From a virus, in IMG/VR virus record IMGVR_UViG_3300022074_000292, positions 1 through 27,816 of that record: a stretch of DNA of 27,816 nucleotides. One strand, written 5' to 3'. The notes beneath the pieces were generated by a model. It did not search any database. It was not told the DNA's origin and worked only from the letters and a program-made list of their open reading frames with translations. How positions within the stretch are numbered: position 1 is the stretch's first letter; every line of letters starts with the position of its first letter. A program made the position numbers and the translations under genes. Of the stretch, positions 1,769-26,427 are shown piece by piece.

Positions 1769-2572
1769 ATGAGTTTAGGTAAGTTATTAAAACAAATAGC
1801 TCCCATAGCAATAAGTGCTTTTGCAGGACCTGCTTTAGGAGCTTCTTTTGGAGCCAGCAGCCCTTTTTTAAGTAGAGCTGTAACAGGAGCTTTAACATCA
1901 AAGCTTATGGGTGGTAAAACTAAGGATGCACTAAGGAATGCTTTAATTTCAGGTGTTACTGGTTCTGTGTTTGATCAGTTTGGTGGTGGTGAACAGGCTG
2001 TTCCTACTGGTGGAGAGGGAACAATTGTTCGTAGTGGAGCTGGAAAACCTCCTCCTCCAAACCCTGATCTTGCAAATAAAATGGGTATAAGTAATGTGCC
2101 AACAGAACAAGCATCAAAACAAATAGCAGAAACATTTAAGCCAAGAACATTTAGTGCTGAACTTTTGAAATCTGCTGGTGTAGGTGGAGATAATCTTTTT
2201 TCTAGATTGCTCAATACACCATTAGGTGAGGGTTTAACAGCAGGTTTAATCGCACAATTGCTATCTGGTGGTGATGAAGATGAGGACACAAGAACATCTT
2301 TTGAAAGAAGACCTTTTGGTACAGGAGGTCCTGGTGGTAAGCTAGGTGGAATAACATTTGCTAGAGAAGGTGGAGAAATGGGTTTTCCAAGACGTAATGG
2401 TGGTATAGATCCATCAGAAGGCTCTGGCACAAAAGATGATGTGCCTGCTATGTTGATGGCAGGTGAATTTGTGTTGACAAAAGACGCAGTTAAAGGTTTA
2501 GGTGATGGTAATCAAAGAAAAGGTATACAAAGAGCCTATAATATGATGGATAACTTGGAAGCGAGGGCATAA
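1769..2572 (+). CDS. Glycine-rich virion protein
   Basis: Encodes 267 residues. The N-terminal third is hydrophobic and small-residue rich (IAISAFAGPALGASFG), compatible with membrane contact during DNA ejection. The middle is Gly/Pro-rich and probably flexible. The C-terminal segment carries DDVPAMLMAGEFVLTKDAV, a DDVPA...PGEFV-like motif found repeatedly in phage virion and tail-associated proteins. The gene follows a 32-base gap with an AAGGT sequence before the ATG, and its stop overlaps the next start (TAATG). Function beyond virion component is unknown. Its place directly ahead of three long ejection-type proteins suggests it belongs to the same internal or tail-proximal assembly. Confidence 0.7.
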   Translation: MSLGKLLKQIAPIAISAFAGPALGASFGASSPFLSRAVTGALTSKLMGGKTKDALRNALISGVTGSVFDQFGGGEQAVPTGGEGTIVRSGAGKPPPPNPDLANKMGISNVPTEQASKQIAETFKPRTFSAELLKSAGVGGDNLFSRLLNTPLGEGLTAGLIAQLLSGGDEDEDTRTSFERRPFGTGGPGGKLGGITFAREGGEMGFPRRNGGIDPSEGSGTKDDVPAMLMAGEFVLTKDAVKGLGDGNQRKGIQRAYNMMDNLEARA

Positions 2573-3570
2573 TGGCTGTTCAAACTGTAGAAAACATACA
2601 AAGATTACCTCCATTCTTAGAAGGTTTGCAAAAAAGATTGTTGCAAACTGGATTTGGTGAATTTGATGGTGAAGACCAAACCACGCCAGGTTTACTAGAC
2701 AGCCCACTAAACCTTCCACAATTTCAAATTGCAGGCATGGATCCTTTAAGAAGTCGTGCAGTATCATTGGGTGAAAATTTAGTAGGATCGTTTAAACCTT
2801 TTATTCAGGGAGCAAGGGATCAAACTTTAGCTGGTCAACAAGCACTGACATCAGGGTTGCAATTTTTACAACCAGGTCAAGGTAAAGGCTTTACCGATTC
2901 ATTGGTAGATCAGACGACTGCTAATATTTCTAAATTTCAAAATCCATTTCAACAACAAGTTATTGATGCTTCTATGAGAGAGCTTGATCGACAAGCAGAT
3001 ATGCAAAGAGCAGGTGCTAGAGCGCAAGCTATACAATCTGGTGCATTCGGTGGATCAAGAGAAGGTATTAGACAAGCCGAAGCTGATAGAGGTTTACAAC
3101 AAGTTAAAGCTGATACTTTGTCAAGATTATTAGCATCAGGCTTTGGGACAGCATTGCAAGCGTCACAAGGAGCTGCTGGAGCTGGTTTAAAATCAGCTCT
3201 AGATGCAGGAAGACTATCTGGTGGACTTGGACAGGCTTTTGGCACTCTAGCAGGCACTACGGGTGATGTAGGACGTTTACAGCAGGCACTAGGTCAAGCA
3301 GATATATCACAATTAACACAATTAGGTGCTTTGAGGCAGGGACAGTCTCAAGCAGAACTAGATGCAACACGTCAAAATTTAATGCAACAAGCACAAGAAC
3401 CATTCACAAGGTTACAATTAGGACAAAACTTACTGCAAGGTATGCCGAGTGCTTCTATACCTTCGACATTCCAGCAGGCAACATCACCTGGTGCAAATCC
3501 ATTCTTACAGGGTATTGGTGCATATACAACATTGTCACAAATTGCACCTTTTGGTGGTAATTCTAAGTAG
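2572..3570 (+). CDS. Predicted internal virion / DNA-ejection protein
   Basis: Encodes 332 residues that are strikingly rich in Gln, Ala and Gly. The region from about residue 130 to 260 (MRELDRQADMQRAGARAQAI, SGAFGGSREGIRQAEADRG) reads as long amphipathic helices with a flexible centre. Such Q/A-rich helical proteins are typical of the ejection (internal core) proteins of short-tailed phages, released through the tail to help DNA cross the envelope. No enzyme motif was seen. The gene is translationally coupled to the previous one by TAATG and followed after nine bases by another long helical protein. The ejection role is inferred from composition and gene order. Confidence 0.7.
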   Translation: MAVQTVENIQRLPPFLEGLQKRLLQTGFGEFDGEDQTTPGLLDSPLNLPQFQIAGMDPLRSRAVSLGENLVGSFKPFIQGARDQTLAGQQALTSGLQFLQPGQGKGFTDSLVDQTTANISKFQNPFQQQVIDASMRELDRQADMQRAGARAQAIQSGAFGGSREGIRQAEADRGLQQVKADTLSRLLASGFGTALQASQGAAGAGLKSALDAGRLSGGLGQAFGTLAGTTGDVGRLQQALGQADISQLTQLGALRQGQSQAELDATRQNLMQQAQEPFTRLQLGQNLLQGMPSASIPSTFQQATSPGANPFLQGIGAYTTLSQIAPFGGNSK

Positions 3571-3579
3571 GATACAAGC

Positions 3580-5361
3580 ATGGCAAAGCAACCAACATTA
3601 AGTTCTAATTTATTTAATTTAGGAATTGGCTCTAACAATCAACAAGGTTTAATAGGTAGTGATTTATCAAACATAGGAATTTTACCTCTACAAGATCAAT
3701 TAGCAAAAGAGATTGAAAAAAAACAAGAATTTAGAAAAAATGTAGCTGGACAATTAGATACAGATAAAAAAATTCCTTTAGGACCTATTACTTTTGCTGA
3801 TGATTTAGAAAACTTTATAAAGCAAGAGGCACAAAACAAAAAAGTAGATCAATCGAATCAAGGACTTGATGTAGACACTGATGTAAAAAAAGACATTAAA
3901 CTTTTTCCTGTTGATCCTAAAGCTGGTGTTGATATGTCACCTACAAGTCAAGGTGTGGGTAGAATAGATGAAAAAATGGAACTTGGAGCCATGTCTGATG
4001 CAGACATAGACTATACTGATGTAGGTGAGCCAGGTTCCTTAGAGCCAGAGCCAGAAGAAAAGACAACATTAGCTAAAGAACAGCAAGCATTACAAGATTT
4101 GTTTAAAGACACCATGAAAGAAACTATGGATTTATACGGAGATGCTGAAAAAGATGCTAAAGTAAAGACTATAGAAGAATATAAAGATGATTTTCAAAAA
4201 GCAACAGGTATTGATATATCAGGAGAGCCTGATAATAAAAATGCTTTGATGGCTTTAGGCTTTAGACTCATGGCAAACAGAGCTGGTAAAGATTTTGATT
4301 TATCGAATATTTTACAAGAAACTGGTAAAATAGGACTAGAGTCATTGCCAGATTTTGAAAAAGCAAAAGACAAAGCAAAAGCTGGTCAATTAGCTTCTGG
4401 TAAATTTGCATTAGGACAGAAGTTGGCTGACACAAAAGCATTAACAGCTCTTAATAAAGAGAAAAGATTAGCTCTGTTAGGTCTTGGAAAAGAATTTAGA
4501 TCATTGGCTGAAAAGAGAAGAGCAGAAGCAGCCAAACACCTTAATTCTGTAGAATTAAAAGAATTAGAGTTTACTGCAAAAAGGTTAGAAGCATATCGTA
4601 AGGGACAAGCAAAGTTATCTGAAATAACTAAAAATCAAGGTTTTGCACCTATTGATGGGCAACCTGGCTTAAAAGTTCAAAAAGCTTTAAGAAAAGATGC
4701 AAGTGTAGGCAACCCTCTTGTTTACACACAAGCAGGTGATGATATTAGAAGATTTAAAGATTCTTACGGAAACATAACAAGAGCAAGAAATACTTTATCT
4801 AGCATAGGTGGATTAGTTAAAGATTTAGGAGATCAAACTGGATCTCCTTTAGCTGATCAAGTTTTAGAAAAAGTACAAAATCTTGGTGTAGCTATAGGAT
4901 TAGATCCCAAAAAATTATTTCCTAAACTTGTAACAATTGGCAAAGATGGTAAAGCAAAGCTTGTAGAAGGTGTTGGAAGAAAAGACATGATAGAAGTTCT
5001 TAATAGAACTTTAATAAACGAATATAAAAAGTTTTTAACACAAGAAACTGGTAATGGTATATCAAACCAAGACGTAGATAGACTAGAAAAAGCTTTAGGT
5101 AAAATAGATTTGTTTGGAAATCCACAATTAGCATTACAAAGAATAAACGAAATTGATCAGATATTTGCTAAAACACAAGATCAAATAACCAATACATTAA
5201 CAGGTTTCAAAGATAGAAATAGTTATTTAACTGACGATCAATTCAATAGAGCGCAAAAAGAACTTAAAGCAGGGACTGTTGAGCAGTTTGGTAATTCAGG
5301 ACCTAAGTTTAATGTATCTACTGCTGATGATGGAACACTTACTTATACATTGGTTAAATAA
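3580..5361 (+). CDS. Long helical virion protein, ejection-type
   Basis: Encodes 593 residues, mostly charged and helical. About residues 150-190 are acidic (EPEPEEKTTLAKEQQALQ), and about 260-350 are strongly Lys/Glu/Ala-rich (FEKAKDKAKAGQ, LAEKRRAEAAKHL), likely coiled coil. No membrane segment and no lysozyme or transglycosylase motif was seen. The final codon overlaps the ATG of the next gene (TAATG). It sits between the Q/A-rich protein and the very large protein, matching the set of several successive internal-core or ejection proteins in podovirus genomes. The function is inferred from context only. Confidence 0.7.
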   Translation: MAKQPTLSSNLFNLGIGSNNQQGLIGSDLSNIGILPLQDQLAKEIEKKQEFRKNVAGQLDTDKKIPLGPITFADDLENFIKQEAQNKKVDQSNQGLDVDTDVKKDIKLFPVDPKAGVDMSPTSQGVGRIDEKMELGAMSDADIDYTDVGEPGSLEPEPEEKTTLAKEQQALQDLFKDTMKETMDLYGDAEKDAKVKTIEEYKDDFQKATGIDISGEPDNKNALMALGFRLMANRAGKDFDLSNILQETGKIGLESLPDFEKAKDKAKAGQLASGKFALGQKLADTKALTALNKEKRLALLGLGKEFRSLAEKRRAEAAKHLNSVELKELEFTAKRLEAYRKGQAKLSEITKNQGFAPIDGQPGLKVQKALRKDASVGNPLVYTQAGDDIRRFKDSYGNITRARNTLSSIGGLVKDLGDQTGSPLADQVLEKVQNLGVAIGLDPKKLFPKLVTIGKDGKAKLVEGVGRKDMIEVLNRTLINEYKKFLTQETGNGISNQDVDRLEKALGKIDLFGNPQLALQRINEIDQIFAKTQDQITNTLTGFKDRNSYLTDDQFNRAQKELKAGTVEQFGNSGPKFNVSTADDGTLTYTLVK

Positions 5362-8564: not shown

Positions 8565-9010
8565 ACATAGAAGAGCTAAGAGAAACCCTTAAGGTAGACG
8601 AGGGAAATGTAAAATCCATATACCTCGATCACTTAAATTTACCTACCACGGGGATTGGTCACCTTATAACAGAGTGGGATGAAGAGTACAACAAACCAGT
8701 TGGAACACCAGTATCAGAAGAAAGAATTAATGAATTATTTGATAAAGACGTAAAAGTAACCATAGACGAGTGCGAACAATTATTCGATAACTTTCAAGAT
8801 CTGCCAGAAGAAGTAAAACAAATATGCGCCAATATGATGTTTAATATGGGCAGACCTCGTTTGAGTAAATTTTTGAAGTTTCGTGAAGCTATTAAAAATA
8901 AAAACTGGAAAGAATGTGCCGTCCAAATGGAAGATTCGAGATGGCACAAGCAGGTAACCAATCGCGCAAATAGGTTAATCTCTCGTATGAATGCTGTTGA
9001 TAGCACCTAA
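8561..9010 (+). CDS. T4-type lysozyme (endolysin, GH24)
   Basis: A 149-residue muramidase that cleaves the peptidoglycan glycan backbone for host lysis. The N terminus aligns by eye with T4 lysozyme: VDEG places catalytic Glu at residue 14, YLD places Asp at residue 23, and the TTGIGH motif supplies the threonine (residue 29 or 30) and structural His34. The C-terminal half keeps the family pattern (NMMFNMG, then SRWHKQVTNRANRLI). The start is GTG, overlapping the upstream stop (GTGA), so it is coupled to the structural operon. No signal peptide is visible, so a holin would be needed; none is recognised next to it. The last 36 bases overlap the convergent regulator gene. Confidence 0.93.
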   Translation: MNIEELRETLKVDEGNVKSIYLDHLNLPTTGIGHLITEWDEEYNKPVGTPVSEERINELFDKDVKVTIDECEQLFDNFQDLPEEVKQICANMMFNMGRPRLSKFLKFREAIKNKNWKECAVQMEDSRWHKQVTNRANRLISRMNAVDST

Positions 9011-9187
9011 TCCAAGACTAGTAACCTTAGTTTTATATTTACTATATTCTTCTTTATCAAACTCTTGATCAATCATAAGACTTAATTGTTGCCTAATGTT
9101 TCTTCTTTGATGCTCACATATCTTAACCAGTTTATCATAACTCTTACGATCTAAACCAACAGACTTGTATTTTGAAATATCTGTCAT
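8975..9187 (-). CDS. Ribbon-helix-helix-like DNA-binding regulator
   Basis: Encodes 70 residues and is the only convincing leftward gene. The start at 9187 is chosen because GGAGG (complement of 9195-9199) lies seven bases upstream; the in-frame ATG eight codons earlier lacks such a site. The sequence fits an Arc/MetJ-type ribbon-helix-helix: a short strand (YKSVGLD), helix 1 (RKSYDKLVKICEHQ), a turn, then helix 2 (NIRQQLSLMIDQEF). Such dimers bind tandem operator repeats. It has its own promoter (9218-9246), and three ACCCA repeats spaced ten bases apart overlap that promoter, suggesting autoregulation. It may be the phage's early/late switch, but that is inference. Its 3' end is antisense to the end of the lysozyme gene. 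Confidence 0.75.
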   Translation of the reverse strand: MTDISKYKSVGLDRKSYDKLVKICEHQRRNIRQQLSLMIDQEFDKEEYSKYKTKVTSLGLGAINSIHTRD

Positions 9188-9199
9188 TATACTACCTCC

Positions 9200-9577
9200 A
9201 TGACCCATACATACCCATTTATACCCAAAAAAAGTAGAACAAGCAACAATAAGTATTTTGCAAAAAAAACTATTGCTATGGGTTTAAAGTTTGATTCTAG
9301 ATGGGAAGCAGAAAGATGGGGACAACTTAAAGCTATGGAAAGAGCTGGTGTTGTAACAGAATTAGAACGTCAAATTAAATATGACTTATCTATTAATGAT
9401 GTTAAAATTTGTAGTTACATAGCTGATTTTAGATATTTACAACAAGAAGAAGATGGATTCTCAAGACTCATTGTAGAAGATGCAAAAGGTGTGCTGACAC
9501 CTGAGTTTAAGCTCAAAAAAAAGATGATGAAAGCTATACATAATATAGACATTCTTCTGTCTTACAAAAAAAAATGA
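9200..9577 (+). CDS. DUF1064 nuclease (PD-(D/E)xK superfamily)
   Basis: A 125-residue protein matching the DUF1064 pattern. The region around residues 28-40 (GLKFDSRWEAERWG), the Q58 region, YIADF (Asp76) and VEDAKG (Asp94-x-Lys96) form the metal-binding core of a PD-(D/E)xK nuclease. In this superfamily the closest comparisons are RecU-like or VRR-type nucleases; the substrate is probably branched or recombining DNA. The ATG at 9200 has no clear ribosome site, and the only other in-frame ATG (9278) would delete conserved residues, so 9200 is kept. The start lies twelve bases from the divergent regulator start, so its 5' end overlaps that gene's promoter and operator repeats. It precedes the recombination operon. 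Confidence 0.8.
   Translation: MTHTYPFIPKKSRTSNNKYFAKKTIAMGLKFDSRWEAERWGQLKAMERAGVVTELERQIKYDLSINDVKICSYIADFRYLQQEEDGFSRLIVEDAKGVLTPEFKLKKKMMKAIHNIDILLSYKKK
9203..9227. promoter_or_regulatory. Three phased ACCCA repeats (operator candidate)
   Basis: ACCCA occurs at 9203-9207, 9213-9217 and 9223-9227, exactly ten bases apart, so all on one face of the helix. They cover the -10 box and start point of the regulator's promoter. Tandem short repeats are the usual target of ribbon-helix-helix dimers. Confidence 0.55.
9218..9246 (-). promoter_or_regulatory. Leftward promoter of the RHH regulator
   Basis: On the complementary strand TTGCTT (9241-9246) and TATAAA (9218-9223) are separated by 17 bases. 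The predicted start is about 24 bases before the regulator's ATG. The promoter lies inside the first codons of the rightward nuclease gene. Confidence 0.5.
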
Positions 9578-14872: not shown

Positions 14873-17047
14873 ATGAACATTATAAAAATTGGCAATAAGA
14901 ATAGGGATATGTCAGCCAATGAACTAGTTGATTTAATTAGTCAGAAAGTCCCAGCCAGTGTCCAGATAAGTACTTTAAGAGATACTTATCCACAAGGAAT
15001 TGTTCGGGGTGACGTGTTTACAATTGGGTCACTAGACGGAGAATCTGGCAAATCATTAAAGATAGACATAAATCCTAGATCACCTTACTTTATGAAGGGA
15101 TCGGATTTCAACGGATCACAAGGTGTCGGTGGTATAGTGAAGATATTAATGGAAGGTAGAGGTATGCGCCTTCCTGAGATCAAAGAATTGTTCGGAAACT
15201 ATCTGGATAATAATGCTCCTCCACCAGTTGAACAAGATATACCACAAGAACTGAGTGTGACATTTAAAAGAGCTATTGATGTCAATACACCATTTGACTC
15301 CGAACATTTATACCTGTCTGGTGATGGTGAAATCCTGTGTCGTGTCAGAAGATACAACATGAAAGACAATGCAGGCAATCCTCTTATGGACAGTCATGGT
15401 AAGCCAAAGAAAGAGTTTAGGCAATTTACAGACTCACCATATCCAAAGATACCTGATGTAAGACCTTTGTATAATATACCAAACATAATTGCTTCTGAGA
15501 AAGTTATATGGGTAGAGGGTGAGAAATGTGCTGATGCACTTAATGAATTAGGATACACAACAACCTGTACTATGGGTGGTGCAGGAATGTTATCTCGTAA
15601 GTCAGCCAGTCGTTTTGACTTTAGTCCTTTGCAGGACAAAGAATTAATTATATGGGGTGACAATGACAATGCAGGTCGTAAGGTTGCTGAACTGGTGCAA
15701 GAACTGGCACTAAATGCAGGAGCCAAATCTGTTACAACATTAACTCCACCACGAGGTAAACCAGAGGGTTGGGATGCAGTTGATGCTATATCTGAAAGCT
15801 TTGATGTACAGCACTTCCTAAACACAACAGTCAAGCATACTAAACGTAACATAAATTTACTGGACGATAGTTTACTGGTCAGCAGGTTTGACGGAAAAGC
15901 ACCCGAACAAAAGTTCTTAGTCGATGGCACATTTCCATTGGCTGTGCCTATAATATTTTCTGCGGCAGGTGATGCAGGTAAAGGTATGATGACACTGGAT
16001 CTTGGTATGAAAGTAGCATCGGGTCAGCCTTTAGCAGAGAGTTTTGGTAGTACAATAGGTGAGTTTGGCAATGTTGTGATCTTTACAGCAGAGGATGATG
16101 AGTCAGAAATGCACAGGAGAATTGAGCGTCTGGATCCGAACAATTTGAGATTTTCGTACCAGCATGAGCTTCGTGTAGTCTCATTACCTAATGTCGGTGG
16201 TGTATTTCCAATACTTCAGGACACAAGAGATGGTTATAGCACCAGTGATGAGTTTGATAAACTTTACGAACAAATTCTGCAAATGAATGATTTAAAACTG
16301 ATTATCTTTGATCCGTTGGCATCTTTTGTCCATGCTGATGTAAATTCTGATCCAGCAGCAGGAGCTGCCTTGACTGGTCTTTTGGCACAGATCGGAACTG
16401 AAACTGGAGCTTCTGTAGTTATGTGTCACCATATGACTAAGATTAAAGATGATACAATCATAAATACTCCTGAACAAGCAAGGTTACTTATCAGAGGTAC
16501 GTCAGCATTGGTAGATGGTGTGAGGTGTGCTTTTGCACTGTGGCAAGTCGATGAAGCTACTGGTCGTAGACGTTGTATGGATATAGGTGTTGAATATCAA
16601 AGAAATAAATGCTTTGATGGAGCAGTAGTCAAATCAAACGGACCTGCAAACAGAGATATTAGGAACTTCATTAGAGATAGTTTTTCTGGATTACTGGAGG
16701 ATAGAACTGAAGAGATTAAAAGATTACATTCTGGAACTAATCGTCAGATTAAGAAAGATGCCCTGTATGCTTGGATTGCAACGTGTGAACGTGAGGGTAG
16801 AGCTTTGACTCAACAGTCAGGAGCAGATGCTATTACGCAGAGATTAACGTCAGATCGTGATGCACCACAGGTCTTGAACAACTTAACACAACGAAGCATT
16901 GACGGAATTGTTCGGGAACTTATACAAGAAGCACGTATCGGAAAGTATTCTTTTACTGCTTCTGGTGGTCGTAAATGGCTTGGTACAACAGAAGGTGTAA
17001 TGTCAACTGGAGAGTACGAAGCAACAACAGCTACAGATAATGTCTGA
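14873..17047 (+). CDS. Primase-helicase: TOPRIM domain fused to RepA-like helicase
   Basis: A 724-residue replication protein. The TOPRIM domain shows WVEGEKCADAL (catalytic Glu215) and WGDNDNAG (Asp263, Asp265), the metal-binding residues of DnaG-type primases. The C-terminal half is a RecA-fold ATPase of the RepA/AAA_25 type: Walker A GDAGKG (366-371), Walker B LIIFDP (Asp480), and a CHHMTK motif. The usual Ser/Thr after the Walker A lysine is Gly371. No zinc-binding domain was seen at the N terminus. It would unwind and prime phage DNA for the host polymerase, as no phage polymerase is in the window. The upstream gap has AGGGGT before the ATG. The stop overlaps the next start (TGATG). Confidence 0.88.
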   Translation: MNIIKIGNKNRDMSANELVDLISQKVPASVQISTLRDTYPQGIVRGDVFTIGSLDGESGKSLKIDINPRSPYFMKGSDFNGSQGVGGIVKILMEGRGMRLPEIKELFGNYLDNNAPPPVEQDIPQELSVTFKRAIDVNTPFDSEHLYLSGDGEILCRVRRYNMKDNAGNPLMDSHGKPKKEFRQFTDSPYPKIPDVRPLYNIPNIIASEKVIWVEGEKCADALNELGYTTTCTMGGAGMLSRKSASRFDFSPLQDKELIIWGDNDNAGRKVAELVQELALNAGAKSVTTLTPPRGKPEGWDAVDAISESFDVQHFLNTTVKHTKRNINLLDDSLLVSRFDGKAPEQKFLVDGTFPLAVPIIFSAAGDAGKGMMTLDLGMKVASGQPLAESFGSTIGEFGNVVIFTAEDDESEMHRRIERLDPNNLRFSYQHELRVVSLPNVGGVFPILQDTRDGYSTSDEFDKLYEQILQMNDLKLIIFDPLASFVHADVNSDPAAGAALTGLLAQIGTETGASVVMCHHMTKIKDDTIINTPEQARLLIRGTSALVDGVRCAFALWQVDEATGRRRCMDIGVEYQRNKCFDGAVVKSNGPANRDIRNFIRDSFSGLLEDRTEEIKRLHSGTNRQIKKDALYAWIATCEREGRALTQQSGADAITQRLTSDRDAPQVLNNLTQRSIDGIVRELIQEARIGKYSFTASGGRKWLGTTEGVMSTGEYEATTATDNV

Positions 17048-17265
17048 TGGCTGGCAAGAGTAAATCAGCCACACAAAACTATAATGAGCTTCGTGCTTTG
17101 ACCAAAAAATTGCTGAAAGAAGGCAAGAAAAAACAACGCAAAGGTCAAGATGAGTCCGAACAATTATTCGAGGACGATCCCAGAGCTGCACAAGAACAGG
17201 ATTTTGGTCGAGTCAGAAAAAATTCTACATATGTATTTTCCAGAAATATTTTAAGTGATTTGTAA
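17047..17265 (+). CDS. Small basic protein, unknown function
   Basis: Encodes 72 residues, coupled to the primase-helicase by a TGATG overlap. It is Lys/Arg/Gln-rich in the first half (LTKKLLKEGKKKQRKGQDE) and more acidic in the middle (EQLFEDDPRAAQEQDFGRV). It probably binds nucleic acid or a replication protein, but no family is recognised. It is the last gene of the replication operon; the next promoter begins 18 bases after its stop. Confidence 0.6.
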   Translation: MAGKSKSATQNYNELRALTKKLLKEGKKKQRKGQDESEQLFEDDPRAAQEQDFGRVRKNSTYVFSRNILSDL

Positions 17266-17283
17266 AAAAATTTATTTTTATAC

Positions 17284-17311
17284 TTGACTTGTATGTAATG
17301 AATACCATATA
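17284..17311 (+). promoter_or_regulatory. Promoter of the first accessory genes
   Basis: TTGACT (17284-17289) and CATATA (17306-17311), spacer 16, with GTAATGAATAC (17295-17305) inside the spacer. It precedes the DUF3846-like gene. Confidence 0.65.
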
Positions 17312-17346
17312 CAACTATTATGAACTATCATAATGGGAGCAAGTAG

Positions 17347-17601
17347 ATGAAGTTTAAAATCATAGAAGATAAAAAAGATCAGCCAACTTTAGAAGAGGCT
17401 CAAAAGTTTGTTGGTGGTTGGGTTGAGTGTGTGTCTCTTAGAAATGGAGATATTTTGCTTATTGATGAAGAGGGCAAATTAAAAGAAAATAGTATTAATG
17501 CTGAAGCTAGTGTTCATTTTGTTGAAAGTTTTGGTTCAGTTGATTGTATTGTTGGTAATGCCATGTTGATCAAAAAGGGAGCCAATACAAAATGGAAATA
17601 A
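17347..17601 (+). CDS. DUF3846-like small phage protein
   Basis: Encodes 84 residues after GGGAGC and a promoter at 17284. The pattern LEEAQKFVGGWVECVSLRNG, LLIDEEGKLKENSINAEAS and CIVGNAMLI matches the DUF3846 type (YVGG.VE...NG, DEEG...N..A, IVGNA), small proteins of unknown function common in phages and plasmids. There is no signal peptide or catalytic motif. It opens the accessory block, and its last ten bases overlap the next, much longer gene. Its leader, GGAGCAAGTAGATG, is nearly the same as that of the gene at 18875. Confidence 0.65.
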   Translation: MKFKIIEDKKDQPTLEEAQKFVGGWVECVSLRNGDILLIDEEGKLKENSINAEASVHFVESFGSVDCIVGNAMLIKKGANTKWK

Positions 17602-18815
17602 ATGATAAGCCATTGATGGCAAGTGAAATTATTGGTGCTATGGCTCAACCTAAAAGGGCTATGGCAAAATATCAAGGTGGGTCTATTGCCGAGGGTAAGA
17701 TAAGAGAAACTCAATCTATGTTTGTCAATGCTCAAAAGTTTAAAGTTTCTAATCAGCTAATTGATCATGCAGGTGAGGCATCTATGTCTAAACCTCATGT
17801 ATTGCTTGAGATGATTAAAACTGCAATACCACCATTTAAAAATATGTTTATAGAATGGGATGAACATTATCGTGTTCATCTTTTAAAAAATCTTTATCAT
17901 AAATATTTGCCACAGTATGTGGGCAAGATTGAGGAACCTACAGATTATCTAGATCGTATAGGTTATCATATATATGAGTATGAACATCCTAGTGGGGATA
18001 GTTGGTATATGTACGATATGTGGTGCATGATTGATGGTAAGTGGTTTTGTTCTCCATTATCTTCAGTTGTTCGTAACGAAGAAGAATGGAATATGAATAT
18101 TGCTTATTCTAATTATGTGTTGAAAGAGCAAGCATCAAGAGAACTTACTTCTGATTATAGAAGTTATATGATGGATGCAGAAAATTTTACTAAGGAAACT
18201 GCACATCAAAGTATTAAGATTATTGGACATCCATATTCTTTGGCACACTTTAAAGACAATGATAAGTTGTTTAGAGCAAAGTCATTGGACAATAATCGTG
18301 AAGAATATAAGTTGATGCTTGATATTTATTCGAGGTTTACGACTGTGCAAAGTAGAGCCATGCATTGGCTTATTCCAAAGCATAAATTTTTAGAAGGTTG
18401 GAGTAATGAAGAGATGGAAGAAATCTCTAAAACTCATTTGCAGTTGATCCAAGGTGGTGACGTTAGGTTTATCATTAGTGTGCTTTCCATACTTAATTAC
18501 GATTTAATCGTCAAGGAGACACAGAAACCTGCAAGTCATAAGGTAAAGCACGTTAGATTTGGAAGAAGTGTCCCTACGAATGAATATAGCCTTTTAAATA
18601 TAGAATTGCCCAAGCCTAGAGGTAAGACTGTTTATGAAAAGATATTCACGGGTCAAGGCACTCCAAAGAAGTGGCATATGAGACGTGGGCATTGGAGACG
18701 TTATCGTGATAAGCAAGGCAATGTCACCAAAAAGGTTTGGGTAGATCAATGTGAGGCAGGCAGTAAAGAGCATGGTCAAAAGATTAATGATTATAATTTG
18801 CAAAAAAGCAGTTGA
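17592..18815 (+). CDS. Conserved phage-type protein with His/Arg/Trp-rich C terminus
   Basis: Encodes 407 residues; I do not recognise a named family. About residues 80-180 carry many Trp, Tyr and His (IEWDEHYRVHLL; SGDSWYMYDMWCMIDGKWF). A helical middle follows. The C terminus holds KKWHMRRGHWRRYRDKQGN followed by KVWVDQC and an AGSKEHG segment, a compact basic motif of the kind found at the end of several phage hypothetical proteins, perhaps a nucleic-acid-binding module. The start overlaps the previous gene by ten bases, with AGGGAG upstream. The stop TGA lies inside the -35 box of the following promoter (18812). A DNA-takeover or host-modifying role is possible but not shown. Confidence 0.65.
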   Translation: MEINDKPLMASEIIGAMAQPKRAMAKYQGGSIAEGKIRETQSMFVNAQKFKVSNQLIDHAGEASMSKPHVLLEMIKTAIPPFKNMFIEWDEHYRVHLLKNLYHKYLPQYVGKIEEPTDYLDRIGYHIYEYEHPSGDSWYMYDMWCMIDGKWFCSPLSSVVRNEEEWNMNIAYSNYVLKEQASRELTSDYRSYMMDAENFTKETAHQSIKIIGHPYSLAHFKDNDKLFRAKSLDNNREEYKLMLDIYSRFTTVQSRAMHWLIPKHKFLEGWSNEEMEEISKTHLQLIQGGDVRFIISVLSILNYDLIVKETQKPASHKVKHVRFGRSVPTNEYSLLNIELPKPRGKTVYEKIFTGQGTPKKWHMRRGHWRRYRDKQGNVTKKVWVDQCEAGSKEHGQKINDYNLQKSS

Positions 18816-18840
18816 CTATGCAATCAATGCAATGTAACAA
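18812..18840 (+). promoter_or_regulatory. Promoter overlapping a stop codon
   Basis: TTGACT (18812-18817) contains the TGA stop of the preceding gene. The -10 is weak (TAACAA, 18835-18840, spacer 17). GCAATCAATGC (18820-18830) is the operator-like motif. It precedes the small charged helical gene. Confidence 0.5.
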
Positions 18841-18874
18841 TATCAATAACTATCATTTTTAAAGGAGCAAGTAG

Positions 18875-19114
18875 ATGACAGTGGTTAAACTAAAAAATGG
18901 AATATCATTGCTAGATCAAAAAGATGTAGATGATATGGATAAGTATAAATCAATCGTCAATAAAATCAAAAAGCATATTGCTTATGAAACTAGAGAATAT
19001 AAGCAGTATTTAAAATCTGGTTATGAAGACAGTTTTCAAGATGCTTTGTTTGAGGGCAGAAATGAGTATGCCGAGTATTTACTTAAACAAATAAACGAAT
19101 GGGAGAACTCATAA
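18875..19114 (+). CDS. Small charged helical protein
   Basis: Encodes 79 residues, preceded by AAAGGAGCAAGTAG and its own promoter. It is rich in Lys, Asp, Glu and Tyr and predicted helical throughout (KYKSIVNKIKKHIAYETREY; EYAEYLLKQINEW). No motif is recognised. It is the first of a run of tightly packed small genes reaching to the methyltransferase. Confidence 0.6.
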   Translation: MTVVKLKNGISLLDQKDVDDMDKYKSIVNKIKKHIAYETREYKQYLKSGYEDSFQDALFEGRNEYAEYLLKQINEWENS

Positions 19115-19297
19115 ATGACTGCATATAAACATCAGTTGCAAGGTGTGATGGAAGAGTTTTATTCATACCTCAATATCGATGGCATGACAAATGAGCAGGC
19201 TATCACAAAAATTAAAAAAGATCATGGTGAGCATTGGGAAGAATATGTTCGTGATGAAGTCAAAAGAGAGGAGCAGGCATATGACAATATTAGTTAA
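19115..19297 (+). CDS. Small acidic protein, unknown function
   Basis: Encodes 60 residues, starting directly after the previous stop with GGGAG upstream. Helical and charged (LQGVMEEFYSYLNIDGMT; KKDHGEHWEEYVRDEVKREE). Its last 17 bases overlap the metallopeptidase gene. No family is recognised. Confidence 0.55.
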   Translation: MTAYKHQLQGVMEEFYSYLNIDGMTNEQAITKIKKDHGEHWEEYVRDEVKREEQAYDNIS

Positions 19298-19697
19298 AAG
19301 AATTGATATGGCATTGCACATACAAGAGTTGTGTGCAGTCAATCATATAACTGTTAGCTATCAAAGACTTGATGCTGAAGTACCAAACTATTATGCTGAT
19401 GTTACAAAAAAGCATATCCATATTAGACCGACAAAAAACACGGGATATTATGTGTCTGCTTTGCATGAGATTGGACATATACTTGGTGATAATCAAACTT
19501 ACAATAATACTGTAAAGGAGAGGGAAATTGGTGCATGGATTTGGGCAATGCTTAATGCAAAAGTTTGGACGGATACGGCAGATCGTGTCATGTCGAGGGC
19601 TTTATTATCTTATGGTGTTAGTGAAGAGGAAAGCAGGGAAATCCAAAGAACTTGGAATCCCTGCCACAGAGACGATGAACAACAAATTGCAGTTTAA
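19281..19697 (+). CDS. Small HExxH metallopeptidase-like protein
   Basis: Encodes 138 residues from the ATG at 19281, which has GAGGAG upstream; the longer in-frame start at 19191 lies within the previous gene and lacks such a site. The motif SALHEIGHILG gives zinc ligands His62 and His66 with catalytic Glu63; Glu82 in EREIGAW is the likely third ligand. The protein is essentially a minimal zincin domain, like the ImmA/IrrE-type peptidases that cut repressors, but without a partner repressor adjacent. Targets could be a phage or host protein. No secretion signal is present, so it should act inside the cell. Confidence 0.78.
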   Translation: MTILVKRIDMALHIQELCAVNHITVSYQRLDAEVPNYYADVTKKHIHIRPTKNTGYYVSALHEIGHILGDNQTYNNTVKEREIGAWIWAMLNAKVWTDTADRVMSRALLSYGVSEEESREIQRTWNPCHRDDEQQIAV

Positions 19698-19809
19698 CAA
19701 AGTCTTTATGAAAAATCTCATAAACCACATTAACAATGCAACTCCCACAAGGGAGTTGTCGTTGTTTGAAAAGGTGTATGTCAAGGTGGTCAAACTATGT
19801 CGAAGATGA
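19675..19809 (+). CDS. Possible small basic protein
   Basis: A 44-codon frame overlapping the metallopeptidase end and the next start, filling what would otherwise be a 99-base gap. The product is basic (NNKLQFNKVFMKNLINHINN; EKVYVKVVKLCRR). There is no clear ribosome site, and an eight-base-pair hairpin lies within it (19739-19758). It may be real because gene packing here is tight, but it could equally be a non-coding spacer. Confidence 0.35.
   Translation: MNNKLQFNKVFMKNLINHINNATPTRELSLFEKVYVKVVKLCRR
19739..19758 (+). promoter_or_regulatory. Perfect 8-bp hairpin
   Basis: CAACTCCC (19739-19746) and GGGAGTTG (19751-19758) surround the four-base loop ACAA. The following sequence, TCGTTGTTTG, is T-rich but not a clean run, so this is at best a weak terminator or an mRNA processing hairpin between the metallopeptidase and the next gene. 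Confidence 0.45.
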
Positions 19810-20027
19810 TCGTATACATCTGTGTAATTTGGATCTCTGCCACAGAAAATAATGAGGGTCTTACTCGTTGTATGTGGCATGAGAGCCAAGTTGCTTATCA
19901 AAACATATCAGAGTGTCAAGATGATTTAATTCACTCTATGGAACTCCTAAGGCTACGAATTAGGCAGGAGTTTGGTGGTGTTCCCGAAAAGATATTTATT
20001 GAACCTAAATGTGTGTTGAGGTCGTAA
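19797..20027 (+). CDS. Small cysteine-containing protein with possible signal peptide
   Basis: Encodes 76 residues. The N terminus is short and hydrophobic (KMIVYICVIWISATE), like a signal peptide or membrane anchor. The rest holds three further cysteines (TRCMWHE, SECQDD, EPKCVLRS) that could pair in the periplasm. Phages often carry such small exported proteins of unknown role. The start could be either Met1 or Met4. The stop overlaps the next start (TAATG). Confidence 0.55.
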   Translation: MSKMIVYICVIWISATENNEGLTRCMWHESQVAYQNISECQDDLIHSMELLRLRIRQEFGGVPEKIFIEPKCVLRS

Positions 20028-20209
20028 TGATACGAAGAGAACCAAAGAAAAAGTTTGTTATACATTGTAAGGAAGTCAAATACTACAATGTTGACATTGA
20101 GGCTGATAGCTACGAAGAAGCTGAAAAGAAGTGGAAGTCAATTGCTAAGAGACGTGACTACACAACATTACACAATGAATTTGAAGTATTAAGCATTAGT
20201 GAGGAATGA
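20027..20209 (+). CDS. DpnD/PcfM-like small protein
   Basis: Encodes 60 residues from the ATG at 20027, chosen because it overlaps the previous stop (TAATG) and follows GAGG; the track-long frame from 20009 would start inside the previous gene. The pattern KFVIHCKEVKYYNVDIEADS then YEEAEKKW, and FEVLSISEE, resembles the DpnD/PcfM-type small beta-alpha-beta fold (strand, strand, EA.S.EEA helix, strand). The function of that family is unknown. Confidence 0.55.
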   Translation: MIRREPKKKFVIHCKEVKYYNVDIEADSYEEAEKKWKSIAKRRDYTTLHNEFEVLSISEE

Positions 20210-20211
20210 CA

Positions 20212-20373
20212 ATGAATTGTTGGGCTTGTGGGCATGAATTAATTTGGGGTGGTGATCACGATGGTGAGGATTATGGTGACGAAGATTATTTAATAGTCAC
20301 CAATTTATCCTGCCCAAAGTGTGAGGCATTTGTACTCGTTCACCATCAGAAAAGGGAAGAGAATGAAACATAA
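20212..20373 (+). CDS. Phage zinc-ribbon protein
   Basis: A 53-residue gene with GAGG upstream of the ATG at 20212. Two CxxC pairs, CWAC at residues 3-6 and CPKC at residues 34-37, are separated by an acidic stretch (WGGDHDGEDYGDEDY), forming a zinc ribbon. The opening NCWACGHELIWGGDH matches a small zinc-ribbon family common in phage accessory regions. The role is unknown; binding to RNA polymerase or nucleic acid is plausible for such proteins but not shown. It overlaps the next gene by eleven bases. Confidence 0.75.
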   Translation: MNCWACGHELIWGGDHDGEDYGDEDYLIVTNLSCPKCEAFVLVHHQKREENET

Positions 20374-20524
20374 GAAAAACAAACTGACAAAAAAAGAAAT
20401 CAAAGATTATATAGATAGAATTGAAAATGATAGGTGGGATTTGGCTTGTCGTGTCCTTAGTAGAATTAAAAAAAGATCTAAACCCCTACCACAAGAATTT
20501 TTTATTCTAGAGACAGATAGATGA
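20363..20524 (+). CDS. Small basic protein, unknown function
   Basis: Encodes 53 residues from the ATG at 20363, which has GGAAGAG upstream and overlaps the zinc-ribbon gene end. The N terminus is Lys-rich (KHKKNKLTKKEIKDYIDRI), followed by a helix (WDLACRVLSRIKKRS). The stop overlaps the next ATG (ATGA). No family is recognised. Confidence 0.55.
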   Translation: MKHKKNKLTKKEIKDYIDRIENDRWDLACRVLSRIKKRSKPLPQEFFILETDR

Positions 20525-20649
20525 AACATAAAGATACATTATCTAAAACCCATTCTACGTCTCGTAAATGGGAAAAGAGCATGAAGAAAAGAACTAAGAA
20601 GTCACAAAGACAATTAGATAAAAAGGTAGCTAAAGATGATCGATATTAA
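20521..20649 (+). CDS. Tiny basic protein ahead of the methyltransferase
   Basis: A 42-codon frame with an ATGA overlap at the front and a 14-base overlap with the methyltransferase start at the end. The product is strongly basic (SRKWEKSMKKRTKKSQRQL) with no recognised family. Support is the seamless packing with neighbours on both sides; the ribosome site is weak. Confidence 0.5.
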   Translation: MKHKDTLSKTHSTSRKWEKSMKKRTKKSQRQLDKKVAKDDRY

Positions 20650-21910
20650 GATCGGAGATTGTAGAGAAAAGCTGAAGGAATTACCGAACAATTTCTTTCA
20701 TACAGTCATTACATCACCTCCATACTGGGGATTACGAGACTACGGAACTGGTAAATGGATCGGTGGAGACCCAAATTGTTCGCATATTGCTGGTAAAGCC
20801 CGTAACGATGCTGATCGGGAATTTGGCACAAAAGAGACATTAACTGTGCAATATCGTGACGTTTGCAAGGATTGTGGTGCAGTCAGGGAGGATAATCAGA
20901 TTGGTATGGAAGCCAGCCCTGAAGAATATGTCCGTAAAATTGTTCGGACTTTTCAGGAAGTAAAACGGGTGCTTCGTGATGATGGAACTCTTTGGCTTAA
21001 CCTTGGTGATAGTTACTCAAGTGGTGGCAGAACGTCTACAACTAATCAAACTGTTAGAGGTGATAAGGATTACGGGGTCACTAGACCTCCCGTATCGGGC
21101 AGTATAAAGCCTAAAGACCTTGTAGGTATACCTTGGAGGGTTGCTCTGGCACTTCAGGAAGATGGATGGTATCTCAGGCAGGACATTATTTGGCATAAGC
21201 CTAATCCTATGCCTGAAAGTGTAAAGGATAGATGCACGAAGGCACATGAATATATATTTCTGCTTACGAAGTCAGAGAAGTATTACTACGACAGTCAAGC
21301 TATTATGGAAGAAGCACAGGACTGGGGAACTCGTGATCGGGCTGATGGTAAGTATCACAACGAAGGAACTGGACTAAGCCCACATACTGGTCTTGAGAAG
21401 TCATATACTCACAGGAACAAAAGAAGCGTGTGGACTGTTGCAGTAAAGCCCTACAACGAAGCCCATTTTGCAGTGTTTCCAACCAGTTTGATTGAACCAG
21501 CGATTCTTGCTGGTTGTCCTCCGAAGATTTGTTCGGAGTGTGGCACTCCATATGAACGGGAAATGGTCACTGTTGAGGTTCCTGAACGGGAAACTAGGGA
21601 CAATATGGTAGGTGTTATACCAAAAAGAGACAAAACTAGCCGTATGAATAGCAAAGATATGAAGTCACTGGTACAGGAAGATAAAGGGTTTACGAAAAAT
21701 TGTTCGTGTTCAGGTCACCAAACTTCTGCTGGTCGGGTGCTGGATCCATTTGGAGGGTCAGGCACAACTGCACTGGTAGCTGATCGACATAAAAGAGATG
21801 CTACAATCATAGAGCTAAATCAAAAATACGTTGATATAGCTGAAACAAGGCTTGGTTCTGATGCACCATTGTTTACACAAATTAAAAGGGAGGTTGTAAA
21901 TGAAAGCTAA
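20636..21910 (+). CDS. DNA N6-adenine/N4-cytosine methyltransferase with zinc-binding inserts
   Basis: A 424-residue SAM-dependent methyltransferase acting on an exocyclic amino group. Motif IV TSPPYWG (SPPY at residues 27-30) comes first and the SAM-binding motif DPFGGSGTT (370-378) last, the order of the beta class. A CxH...CxxC site (C48, H50, C77, C80) and a second Cys cluster (CSECG, later NCSCSG) suggest zinc-stabilised inserts within the target-recognition part. No restriction partner is next to it, so it probably protects phage DNA or controls gene expression. The recognition sequence cannot be read from sequence. The gene itself carries four exact copies of the AATTGTTCG/CGAACAATT motif. 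Confidence 0.92.
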   Translation: MIDIKIGDCREKLKELPNNFFHTVITSPPYWGLRDYGTGKWIGGDPNCSHIAGKARNDADREFGTKETLTVQYRDVCKDCGAVREDNQIGMEASPEEYVRKIVRTFQEVKRVLRDDGTLWLNLGDSYSSGGRTSTTNQTVRGDKDYGVTRPPVSGSIKPKDLVGIPWRVALALQEDGWYLRQDIIWHKPNPMPESVKDRCTKAHEYIFLLTKSEKYYYDSQAIMEEAQDWGTRDRADGKYHNEGTGLSPHTGLEKSYTHRNKRSVWTVAVKPYNEAHFAVFPTSLIEPAILAGCPPKICSECGTPYEREMVTVEVPERETRDNMVGVIPKRDKTSRMNSKDMKSLVQEDKGFTKNCSCSGHQTSAGRVLDPFGGSGTTALVADRHKRDATIIELNQKYVDIAETRLGSDAPLFTQIKREVVNES

Positions 21911-22241
21911 AGGAAAGACCTGTTGCAACTGCAACGAAGAAATTGTTCGGGGTATGGCATTCCCGATAATGAAAAAAAGTATCTGTATGAGCTGTTTTGT
22001 TCATTTTGGACTGGCACAAAAACTGGACATAAGTATGCTTCATTACCAAAATTGTTCGGATGAACATTGCTTCAAATGTGAACTTGCTTTTATGAAAGCA
22101 CTCTGGGCAATGGACTACAAACAGACACAAATGGGCAACTGGTATAAGCGTACCTCAAACCCGAAAATTGTTCGGATTTATGACGATTTACTTACCAACA
22201 TACCAACTTACTCGGTAAGTAGAATGGAGGGTAAGTTATAA
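21900..22241 (+). CDS. Cysteine-rich zinc-binding protein
   Basis: Encodes 113 residues with GGGAGG upstream of an ATG that overlaps the methyltransferase end. Cysteines occur in pairs: CCNC (residues 8-11), CMSC in the thirties, and NCSDEHC plus CFKC near residue 60, enough for two zinc sites in the N-terminal half. The remainder is helical and basic. Probable role is nucleic-acid or protein binding. Three exact copies of the AATTGTTCG motif fall in this short gene, and the first hexamer of the repeat cluster that follows lies in its 3' end. Confidence 0.65.
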   Translation: MKAKGKTCCNCNEEIVRGMAFPIMKKSICMSCFVHFGLAQKLDISMLHYQNCSDEHCFKCELAFMKALWAMDYKQTQMGNWYKRTSNPKIVRIYDDLLTNIPTYSVSRMEGKL

Positions 22242-22441: not shown

Positions 22442-22954
22442 ATGCCCAAAGTAGGTCAGAATTTACCAGAAGAACAAAGACAAAAGGGACTGAAAAGATT
22501 AACTCAGAAACAACAAGCTTTTCTGGATAACTTTATGCACAAGGATATGACTCAGACTAACGCCGCTCGACAAGCTGGGTATAGTAACCCCTCAGTAGAT
22601 GCAGTTAGGTTGCTCCGTAGTGAAGTGGTTCAGGAACGATTTCAGGAGATGCAGGAGGAGAATAGGAGTCGTTTTGGTGTAACGATAGACAAGTCAGTCA
22701 GGGACTTGCTCAAGATCCGTAACGAAGCATGGGAGTCAGGCAAGTTTGGTGAGGCTATTCGGGCTGAAGAACTCCGTTTAAAGGCTACTGGATTGCTTGT
22801 AAACAAGGCTCATGTGCTACATGAGAAAGTAGATAGCATGACAAAGGAAGAAATACTGGATGAACTCCAGAAATTACAACACTTAGCACAGGATCGGATG
22901 AAAAAAGCTAACGTCACCCACATAAACCCAAAGAAGATAGGCAAAAGTAGTTAA
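22442..22954 (+). CDS. Terminase small subunit
   Basis: A 170-residue DNA-packaging protein that recognises the phage packaging site and recruits the large terminase. The N-terminal domain LTQKQQAFLDNFMHKDMTQT then NAARQAGYSNPSVDAVRLL is the helix-turn-helix typical of phage terminase small subunits. The C-terminal half (RNEAWESGKFGEAIRAEELR; LHEKVDSMTKEEILDELQKL) is helical, matching the oligomerisation and portal-contact part. The ATG follows AAGGAGTAAAAGCTA. It is separated from the head genes, and no large subunit is in the window. The hexamer cluster upstream and the structured stretch downstream are candidate binding sites for it. Confidence 0.85.
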   Translation: MPKVGQNLPEEQRQKGLKRLTQKQQAFLDNFMHKDMTQTNAARQAGYSNPSVDAVRLLRSEVVQERFQEMQEENRSRFGVTIDKSVRDLLKIRNEAWESGKFGEAIRAEELRLKATGLLVNKAHVLHEKVDSMTKEEILDELQKLQHLAQDRMKKANVTHINPKKIGKSS

Positions 22955-23340
22955 ATATGGGTACATCTGGGTCTGCACTTGGCGAGTCCGTGGGCAGGGT
23001 CACCGAACAATTTCCATAGGCTACAGGTTATCGGGCTGTGATCGGGGTTGAAACCGACCAATTGTTCGGAGTTGCGTAGCTAATCGGGCTGGTATCGGGT
23101 TGGTATCGGGCTTCCTTCGGGCTACTGTTTGGCTTCCAGCTTGGGTTTCCTTCGGAACCAGCTCTGGGTCAGGAGGCGGATCGGGCTACGCAACTCCCCG
23201 TCCAGACCTGAATACGCACAATTGTTCGCGTTCACGCACAGGTAAGCTGTTGGGTTCGTCCAGCTCTGACTCCGAACAATTGTCCGAAGTCACCAGTTGG
23301 GACAGCAACAGCAGATGCTTCAAAAAAAAATAAAAAAATT
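22955..23340. other. GC-richer structured stretch without credible gene
   Basis: About 380 bases clearly richer in G and C than all surroundings. A 13-bp perfect inverted repeat (23068-23080 with 23185-23197) encloses a 104-base interior with the hairpin AGCT..GGTT.CC-TTC-GGAACC-AGCT (about 23138-23163) and five copies of ATCGGG (two as GGTATCGGG). Four AATTGTTCG/CGAACAATT motifs lie here (23004, 23060, 23220, 23273). The only frame of note (23100-23333) is low-complexity Ser/Gly and not believable. The stretch could be a folded RNA, a packaging site or a recombined remnant. Confidence 0.5.
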
Positions 23341-23351: not shown

Positions 23352-23380
23352 TTGACAGGTAGAAATCATTACTATATTAT
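23352..23380 (+). promoter_or_regulatory. Cassette promoter
   Basis: TTGACA (23352-23357) and TATTAT (23375-23380), spacer 17, with GAAATCATTAC (23362-23372) inside. An A-rich tract upstream (23322-23340) may act as UP element. Confidence 0.75.
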
Positions 23381-24083: not shown

Positions 24084-24097
24084 CGAACAATTGTTCG
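24084..24097. repeat. Palindrome CGAACAATTGTTCG
   Basis: Perfect 14-bp palindrome about 40 bases after a terminator and before the bidirectional hairpin. Same sequence as at 24824 and in the core of 25552-25569. Confidence 0.85.
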
Positions 24098-24782: not shown

Positions 24783-24813
24783 GAAGCTGGGTTCGTAGCC
24801 CAGCTTCTTTTTT
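24783..24813 (+). terminator. Intrinsic terminator
   Basis: GAAGCTGGG (24783-24791) pairs with CCCAGCTTC (24799-24807), a nine-base-pair stem with a seven-base loop, followed by six T. It closes the cassette of the hypothetical and membrane protein genes. The GCTGGG/CCCAGC core recurs in two later terminators. Confidence 0.88.
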
Positions 24814-24823
24814 ATCCTGTAAC

Positions 24824-24837
24824 CGAACAATTGTTCG
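24824..24837. repeat. Palindrome CGAACAATTGTTCG
   Basis: Perfect 14-bp palindrome between the terminator and the next gene, identical in core to those at 24084 and 25554. It resembles a GAAC-N4-GTTC operator of the Gram-positive LexA type, but its many half-sites inside genes do not fit a simple operator. Confidence 0.85.
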
Positions 24838-24858
24838 TATTCAAAGAAGGAGAAGCAG

Positions 24859-25069: not shown

Positions 25070-25100
25070 ATAATTATAAACAGTCAATAGGAGATAAATA

Positions 25101-25509: not shown

Positions 25510-25517
25510 AAAAAACA

Positions 25518-25541
25518 GGCTGGGTTCTCCCAGCCTTTTTT
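25518..25541 (+). terminator. Intrinsic terminator
   Basis: GGCTGGG (25518-25524) pairs with CCCAGCC (25529-25535) around TTCT, followed by six T. It ends the two-gene cassette before the GGCT-like gene. Confidence 0.9.
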
Positions 25542-25551
25542 ACTGGCTGTA

Positions 25552-25569
25552 TACGAACAATTGTTCGTA
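25552..25569. repeat. Extended palindrome TACGAACAATTGTTCGTA
   Basis: The longest copy of the shared palindrome, 18 perfect base pairs, lying eleven bases after a terminator and about 44 bases before the next -35 box. The core is the same 14-mer as at 24084 and 24824. Confidence 0.88.
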
Positions 25570-25612
25570 GTTCCGTGGCTGGATCTGCTGTGAAAAAAAA
25601 TAAAAAAAGATG

Positions 25613-25641
25613 TTGACAGGTGTAGCAATCAATACTATATT
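25613..25641 (+). promoter_or_regulatory. Promoter of the GGCT-like gene
   Basis: TTGACA (25613-25618) and TATATT (25636-25641), spacer 17, with GCAATCAATAC (25625-25635) inside and an A-rich tract (25593-25609) upstream. Confidence 0.75.
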
Positions 25642-25675
25642 ATATATAAATCAATTTCAGCCAAAGGAGATAAAA

Positions 25676-26176
25676 ATGAAAAAGATTTATATTGCTTACG
25701 GAGCAAATACAAATAGAAGGGCAATGGCACGAAGGTGTCCCAATGCCAAACCAATGGGGTCTGGTTTCATTGTCGGTCAAAGGTTTAAGTTTAATAACGT
25801 AGCAGACATCGTTCCAACACAAGTAGGTAGTGGAGTATCAGATGCACCAGCAGTTGCTTGGCAGATCACACCTGATTGTGAAAAAGCACTTGATAGATTT
25901 GAGGGTTTTCCGAGTTTGTACAGAAAGATTGACGTTACCTTTCAAGCAGATGGTGAATACCTTAATGGCTTTGCTTACAAGATGAATTATACAGGATTCC
26001 ATACACCAAGTCCTATATATGTTGATGGTATCAGAACTGGATTGAAGAACTTTTTCAATGCAAGTTACTGGCACATGATCGACAACTCTATTGACTCTGC
26101 AATTATAGAGAGTTTCAGAATGGAGGAAACGGGAAGCCCGTTGACTAAACGGGTTGGTGGCAAGCAGTGGAGGTAA
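25676..26176 (+). CDS. GGCT/AIG2-like cyclotransferase
   Basis: Encodes 166 residues from the ATG at 25676, set by AGGAGATAAAA and by the promoter at 25613; the longer frame from 25610 would start upstream of transcription. The gamma-glutamylcyclotransferase fold is indicated by YIAYGANTN (residues 5-13, the substrate-binding loop, YGSN in most), MARRCPNA, then PAVAWQITPDCEKALDRFEG with Glu76 as likely catalytic acid/base, followed by FPSLYRK. Such enzymes cyclise gamma-glutamyl amines to release 5-oxoproline. The next gene is an amidoligase, a pairing reported in comparative genomics of peptide-modifying systems. The substrate is unknown. Each gene has its own control region. Confidence 0.82.
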   Translation: MKKIYIAYGANTNRRAMARRCPNAKPMGSGFIVGQRFKFNNVADIVPTQVGSGVSDAPAVAWQITPDCEKALDRFEGFPSLYRKIDVTFQADGEYLNGFAYKMNYTGFHTPSPIYVDGIRTGLKNFFNASYWHMIDNSIDSAIIESFRMEETGSPLTKRVGGKQWR

Positions 26177-26195
26177 GTTTCTCCTAAGGCAAAAG

Positions 26196-26224
26196 CCCAG
26201 CTTCCAGTCGGAGCTGGGTTTTTT
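26196..26224 (+). terminator. Intrinsic terminator
   Basis: CCCAGC plus TCC (26196-26205) pairs with GGA plus GCTGGG (26210-26218) around AGTC with one unpaired T, followed by six T. It ends the GGCT-like gene transcript. Confidence 0.85.
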
Positions 26225-26427
26225 CTGGTGTGAATCCGTACAATTGTTCGGGTTGATCGGGCATCGGGGAAGCTGGCTCCTGTAAAATTTTTGATGAAGC
26301 TCCTTATGGTATATAGGGTAATGGGTAAAAAAATTTTTATTTTTTTTTAATTTTTAAAAAATGTAATAAAATCAACAACTTAATCGCAGCTACAAAAAAA
26401 AGTTATAATTGTTCGTATTTAAGTATT

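Follow-up and report, generated by a model that had tools for sequence, protein, structure and literature searches.

The virus record IMGVR_UViG_3300022074_000292 (27,816 bases; G000), which was analysed as a whole and is referred to here as the window, carries 32 exact copies of a 9-bp word, AATTGTTCG/CGAACAATT, 19 of them on the + strand and 13 on the - strand. Judged from sequence comparison, this word is very probably where a viral DNA-binding protein lands, which marks parts of the genome of the virus and may switch the marked parts off. We observed selection on the DNA at fixed positions, a core of the site shared across clades, palindromic forms, an array of copies directly downstream of the small terminase gene terS, and a preferred spacing to intrinsic terminators, and we regard it as highly likely that these reflect a real and strongly selected network of DNA-binding sites. 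That a small ribbon-helix-helix (RHH) protein reads the word, which then serves as a roadblock to transcription or as a silencer, is an interpretation which we put forward tentatively. The window is apparently a fragment of the genome of an uncultured marine phage family, since its relatives are longer (the large contigs of the family measure 45-59 kb).

Selection for the word acts on DNA

Dinucleotide shuffles gave a mean of 0.21 and a maximum of 2 copies of the word, in agreement with an earlier note on this DNA, which had expected less than one copy by chance. All 29 starts listed in that note were found at their positions, as were the presence of only four copies in the first 11.9 kb, the lack of copies in 17166-20684 and the reading of the word in all three frames within genes; its count of about 29 rises to 32, since the partner copies at three palindromes (24089, 24829 and 25559) had been overlooked. 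Nineteen of the 32 copies lie inside coding sequence, compared to a mean of 1.5 and a maximum of 5 in 300 shuffles of synonymous codons within genes; a codon-aware null model had been named beforehand as the refuting test, and the excess of the word survived it. Between genes, the copies often form full or near palindromes. In 11 carrier genomes pooled, the exact word occurred at 105 times its expectation, single changes within TGTTCG were mostly near background, and A/T swaps at positions 1-3 were enriched 7-12 fold. The site thus consists of a rigid TGTTCG core with an AT-rich lead, which resembles the recognition of DNA by a protein.

The word was identical at orthologous positions in 18 of 18 cases in the relative G005, 17 of 19 in G004, 13 of 14 in G007, 12 of 14 in G025 and 10 of 14 in G006, whereas other 9-mers were kept at 12-29% in the same alignments (15% in G007). 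In G010 and G016, from which the word is largely missing, conservation of the window's word positions was at background level. Within the primase/helicase gene, the sites at 15186, 16137 and 16906 were exact in 60-66 of 81 orthologues. The site at 17157 was exact in six of seven relatives with a surrounding protein of 32-69% identity, its exact copies lying in proteins of just 49-69% identity, and the site at 22050 was exact although the protein around it is just 36-39% identical. Where a site was lost, the loss was mostly all-or-none, the sequence usually being several changes off. These exact copies in strongly diverged proteins, together with a retention far above that of other 9-mers, demonstrate selection at the level of the DNA and not of the protein, as the earlier note had proposed. 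Chance and codon usage as the origin of the word are ruled out by the two kinds of shuffles and by the comparison with other 9-mers.

In clades without the word, TGTTCG still occurred at about 3-10 times its expectation, followed by C, G or T and not by A. The terS arrays of these clades carry CGAATAATTGTTCG or CGAACTATTGTTCG, GC-rich members (rich in guanine and cytosine) prefer TGTTCGGGT, and several core sites in the primase gene are common to both clade types. From these patterns, the simplest account of the variants would be a single protein lineage whose preferences shift slowly.

Terminators and the array downstream of terS

Strong intrinsic terminators preceded 16 of 48 palindromes, compared to 37 of 1350 random positions. 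The spacing between the two elements was analysed after removal of similar flanks (557 instances): the T-tract started 15-19 bp before the palindrome in 20 terminators, where 0.8 were expected, and the distance was exactly 18 bp in 13 of these 20, across different stems. A second group of spacings lay at 35-44 bp (24 observed, 0.4 expected). A protein bound at such a distance would halt RNA polymerase at the point where the active site of the enzyme lies over the T-tract. It is known that polymerase is paused by proteins bound to DNA, which also promote its removal (PMC4132739). The preferred spacing suggests a protein-assisted form of intrinsic termination, and this link to transcription is an addition to what the earlier note had proposed. 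In relatives (L089 at 13754 and L250 at 5531), a palindrome stands directly after a structural gene, possibly that of the major capsid protein, and shortly ahead of a terminator, with a T-run immediately following. Four CGAACAATTGTTCG palindromes were also seen in G024, an apparently unrelated 62.6-kb phage (L244 at 12912, 14389, 15000 and 17930), despite the lack of a homologue of the RHH, TerS or helix-turn-helix (HTH) proteins described below.

An array equivalent to that of the window was present in every relative in which the region was read, including G026, G027 and G030, whose terS is only 50-57% identical. In most genomes it is GC-rich, noncoding and roughly 300-700 bp long, and it also holds ATCGGG or TCGGAC repeats. 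The earlier note had seen no strand bias; this holds for the window overall but not for the array, the copies of which mostly point along transcription in relatives, less so in the window. Word density was 2.7-4.2 per kb from terS to the amidoligase gene, 1.1-1.3 per kb in the replication genes and 0.25-0.42 per kb elsewhere. A structured RNA was considered for the array and rejected (no Rfam match; fold z -1.0).

Several further repeats were noticed around the array. In the window, the word is accompanied there by ATCGGG motifs, which are replaced by TCGGAC in another clade, and by an inverted repeat, GGAGTTGCGTAGC / GCTACGCAACTCC, at about 23068 and 23187. In the Pelagibacter phage HTVC023P, a repeat of about 33 bp is present directly 3' of terS in about three tandem copies (L340, 12470-12570), and repeats adjacent to terS may be common in the wider phage group. 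Another repeat, approximately ATCATTACTATATTA, occurs in the window at 23365, 24361, 25059, 25628 and 26452, overlaps several TTGACA-type promoters of the small genes that follow terS, and differs between clades; it may be the operator of an XRE-type HTH protein that is encoded past the window edge in relatives. Contigs end near terS at varying distances and, on an informal reading, give no sign of a fixed physical end.

Table 1 Positions of the word, its palindromic forms and associated genes in the window.
Feature	Position	Strand	Remarks
9-bp word AATTGTTCG/CGAACAATT	2023..26415 (span)	both	exact-match count and position conservation
Word starts, first part	2023+, 5542+, 7489+, 8773-, 11964-, 13937-, 14376-, 14998+, 15186+, 16137-, 16906+		
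Word starts, middle part	17157-, 20685-, 20774+, 20938+, 21698+, 21941+, 22050+, 22166+, 23004-, 23060+, 23220+, 23273-		
Word starts, last part	24084-, 24089+, 24824-, 24829+, 25299-, 25554-, 25559+, 26242+, 26407+		
14-bp palindrome CGAACAATTGTTCG	24084..24097		two overlapping words; T-tract of terminator starts 48 bp upstream
14-bp palindrome CGAACAATTGTTCG	24824..24837		16 bp past T-tract start of terminator 24783-24813
14-bp palindrome CGAACAATTGTTCG (TACGAACAATTGTTCGTA)	25554..25567		18 bp past T-tract start of terminator 25518-25541
Near-palindrome CGTACAATTGTTCG	26237..26250		18 bp past T-tract start of terminator 26197-26224
terS array	22955..23335	+	noncoding, GC-rich, directly downstream of terS; four words and repeated ATCGGG motifs
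Small RHH protein, candidate reader	8975..9208 (conserved part 8978-9187)	-	opposite strand to neighbours; predicted fold
Terminase small subunit TerS (Terminase_2), second candidate reader	22442..22954	+	Pfam E 1.7e-9; adjoins array
Primase/helicase	14873..17047	+	holds four words, three of them conserved in orthologues
DNA methyltransferase (N6_N4_Mtase)	20636..21910	+	Pfam

Candidate readers and competing explanations

Among the DNA-binding candidates examined, only TerS and the RHH protein are universal. Each of the 17 family genomes examined at first contained the RHH gene, as did the later additions with the exception of one 17-kb fragment; across the family, the gene encodes a protein of 70-77 amino acids. 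An RHH fold is predicted with a mean pLDDT (predicted local distance difference test) of 92-94 over residues 11-30, and the presumed DNA-reading strand contains the invariant residues K8 and S9. The protein had no Pfam match; Foldseek lists P22 Arc and MatP first for its model, with only part of MatP aligning. Covariation with the clades did not separate RHH protein and TerS, since both follow the phage tree. We prefer the RHH protein because the coupling to terminators points to a regulator, and TerS is its main rival because of the position of the array. Two other candidates were rejected: no homologue of the methyltransferase was found in the carriers G006, G007, G015, G023 and G025, which also speaks against the methyltransferase target considered in the earlier note, and the XRE-type HTH protein is missing from G026, G027 and G030, all three of which have the word next to terS. 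Several relatives encode a second RHH-like protein (143 amino acids), absent from the window, beside an opposite-strand protein of 252-259 amino acids and before a phrog_2480 gene (L090, 14361-15571; L248, 16128-17317).

Which protein is involved, that it binds the word and how it affects transcription are inferred from these observations as follows. The word would be the recognition site of a sequence-specific DNA-binding protein encoded by the phage family, with palindromes between genes and in the array behind terS as strong sites and single half-sites inside genes. The likeliest reader would be the RHH protein, and its likeliest action would be on transcription: beside an intrinsic terminator, the bound protein would keep RNA polymerase at the T-tract and make termination sharper, and bound in the replication genes and in the terS array, it would form a roadblock that silences or insulates the region, by analogy with the stoperators of mycobacteriophages. 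Several points weigh against this mechanism. The second spacing peak at 35-44 bp is without explanation, and some pairs of terminator and palindrome may share common ancestry despite the identity filter. A simple roadblock leaves the exact conservation of intragenic positions unexplained, and the intragenic words point either way without bias, in contrast to true stoperators. About 13 kb separate the RHH gene from the array, the region upstream of this gene contains no word, each of the Foldseek matches of the predicted fold is weak by itself (best E 0.14, probability 0.95), and TerS, whose gene adjoins the array, is no less universal. That a tiny RHH protein, dozens of fixed, mostly intragenic sites and terminator-coupled palindromes together control or organise the whole phage genome is a possibility which we consider doubtful.

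The window encodes structural proteins, a lysozyme, a DUF1064 protein, an AAA_24 (Sak4-like) ATPase, an SF2 helicase, the primase/helicase, the methyltransferase and the small terminase. In the larger contigs G007 and G025 (52-58 kb), nearly all transcription runs in one direction. The large terminase TerL is closest to those of the Pelagibacter phages HTVC027P and HTVC023P and of phage 023Pt_psg01 (56-58% identity); the word is missing from the first 50 kb read of each of these three, and the window DNA matched no phage record. Weaker relatives of the primase were found in alphaproteobacterial metagenome-assembled genomes (MAGs). In two alphaproteobacterial MAGs that are host-like but need not represent the true host, the word occurred unenriched at about 0.1-0.2 per 10 kb, compared to 5-20 in the phages, which may speak against the uptake tag suggested in the earlier note and against a Chi- or KOPS-type tag of the host. 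The carriers range in GC content from 36 to 57% and probably infect several hosts. The GC skew gave no visible origin signal beyond transcription-linked skew, and no tRNA was found, so that a reading as a tRNA or att-type site was rejected.

Of the other ideas in the earlier note, a nucleoid-, partition- or packaging-type protein site may still hold. In the case of packaging, TerS would bind the word, the array downstream of terS would be the pac region, and the dispersed copies would be auxiliary TerS sites that raise the local TerS concentration or help to choose phage DNA. The array lies directly 3' of terS wherever it was read, even in the divergent, GC-rich G030 with few other copies, its copies mostly share one orientation, the strongly conserved TerS has a homologue in 56 of the 63 high-density contigs of the palindrome scan, and HTVC023P has short tandem repeats right after terS. 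The association with terS is, however, partly locational, since the dense region is what the probe of the scan picks up, and packaging explains neither the fixed spacing to intrinsic terminators nor the exact conserved copies inside replication genes; we regard it as rather unlikely. A genome organiser similar to MatP/matS, SlmA or Noc, in which a protein on dispersed palindromes and half-sites would bridge, condense or position the phage genome, would agree with the many exact sites that occur without strand bias in and between genes and are concentrated in one region, and with an RHH fold related to MatP. We consider such an organiser quite unlikely, as it does not predict the terminator spacing and no obvious partition partner was seen in the part of the family's genes that was searched.

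The density peak near terS, where DNA ends could arise, and the high density in recombination and replication genes are what might be expected of a Chi-like or recombination word that is read by the phage's Sak4-like ATPase, nuclease-like protein and helicase and protects or channels ends made near terS. Such a word is very unlikely here, given that there is no orientation bias outside the array, that the palindromic forms and the A/T tolerance at positions 1-3 look like recognition of double-stranded DNA by a protein, and that the terminator spacing is again unexplained. The phage might also use the site of a host factor, such as the SOS box, which in Gram-positive bacteria reads GAAC-N4-GTTC. 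A literature search for the word returned only unrelated sequences and one paper on LexA-DNA binding in M. tuberculosis, in which the string GAACAATTGTTC occurs (PMC8607333). The GC range of the carriers with its probable several hosts, the dominance of single half-sites inside genes with only three full palindromes in the window, and the loss or alteration of the word along phage clades leave this explanation a very slim chance.

Relation to known multi-site systems

The array resembles the TerS sites of pac/cos systems, such as the R-sites of lambda cosB, in being a directional array of short sites next to terS. The known pac/cos systems have few sites, whereas here dozens of copies are dispersed at conserved positions in genes. 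The candidate reader has the predicted fold of the Arc/MetJ/CopG repressors, some members of which occupy short half-sites arranged in arrays; the targets of Arc and CopG are one or a few operators, in contrast to the word sites spread across the phage genome. MatP of E. coli acts in the Ter macrodomain on 23 matS sites of 13 bp (PMC3330122). The likeness lies in a short multi-copy target in one region that is encoded together with a protein of RHH fold, here the candidate reader, but MatP has about 150 amino acids in solved structures compared to 70-77 in the phage protein, which lacks the full MatP architecture.

The closest analogy to a transcriptional roadblock is offered by the stoperators of cluster A mycobacteriophages, which are bound by the repressor of phages such as L5 and TipsytheTRex at more than 20 near-identical short sites per phage genome, including sites far from promoters, and have been proposed to halt RNA polymerase during elongation (PMC9283540). 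Like these, the word is a short, near-exact site present in more than 20 copies across a phage genome (32 here). The L5 stoperators are asymmetric 13-bp sites that lie between genes, are oriented along transcription and have a monomeric two-domain HTH repressor as their reader (PMC9283540), whereas the word occurs in both orientations with only the terS array mostly oriented, more than half of its copies lie within coding sequence, its strong sites are palindromes and its candidate reader is a small RHH protein. Since orientation and intergenic placement, two defining features of stoperators, are lacking, we did not class the word as a stoperator. If true, a genome-wide roadblock or organiser network built on the word would differ from stoperators in protein, site symmetry and placement. 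Stoperators are the main known dispersed multi-site binding system of phages, and the marine phage word would be a second, apparently independent case, in which intragenic sites stay fixed while the protein sequence around them drifts.

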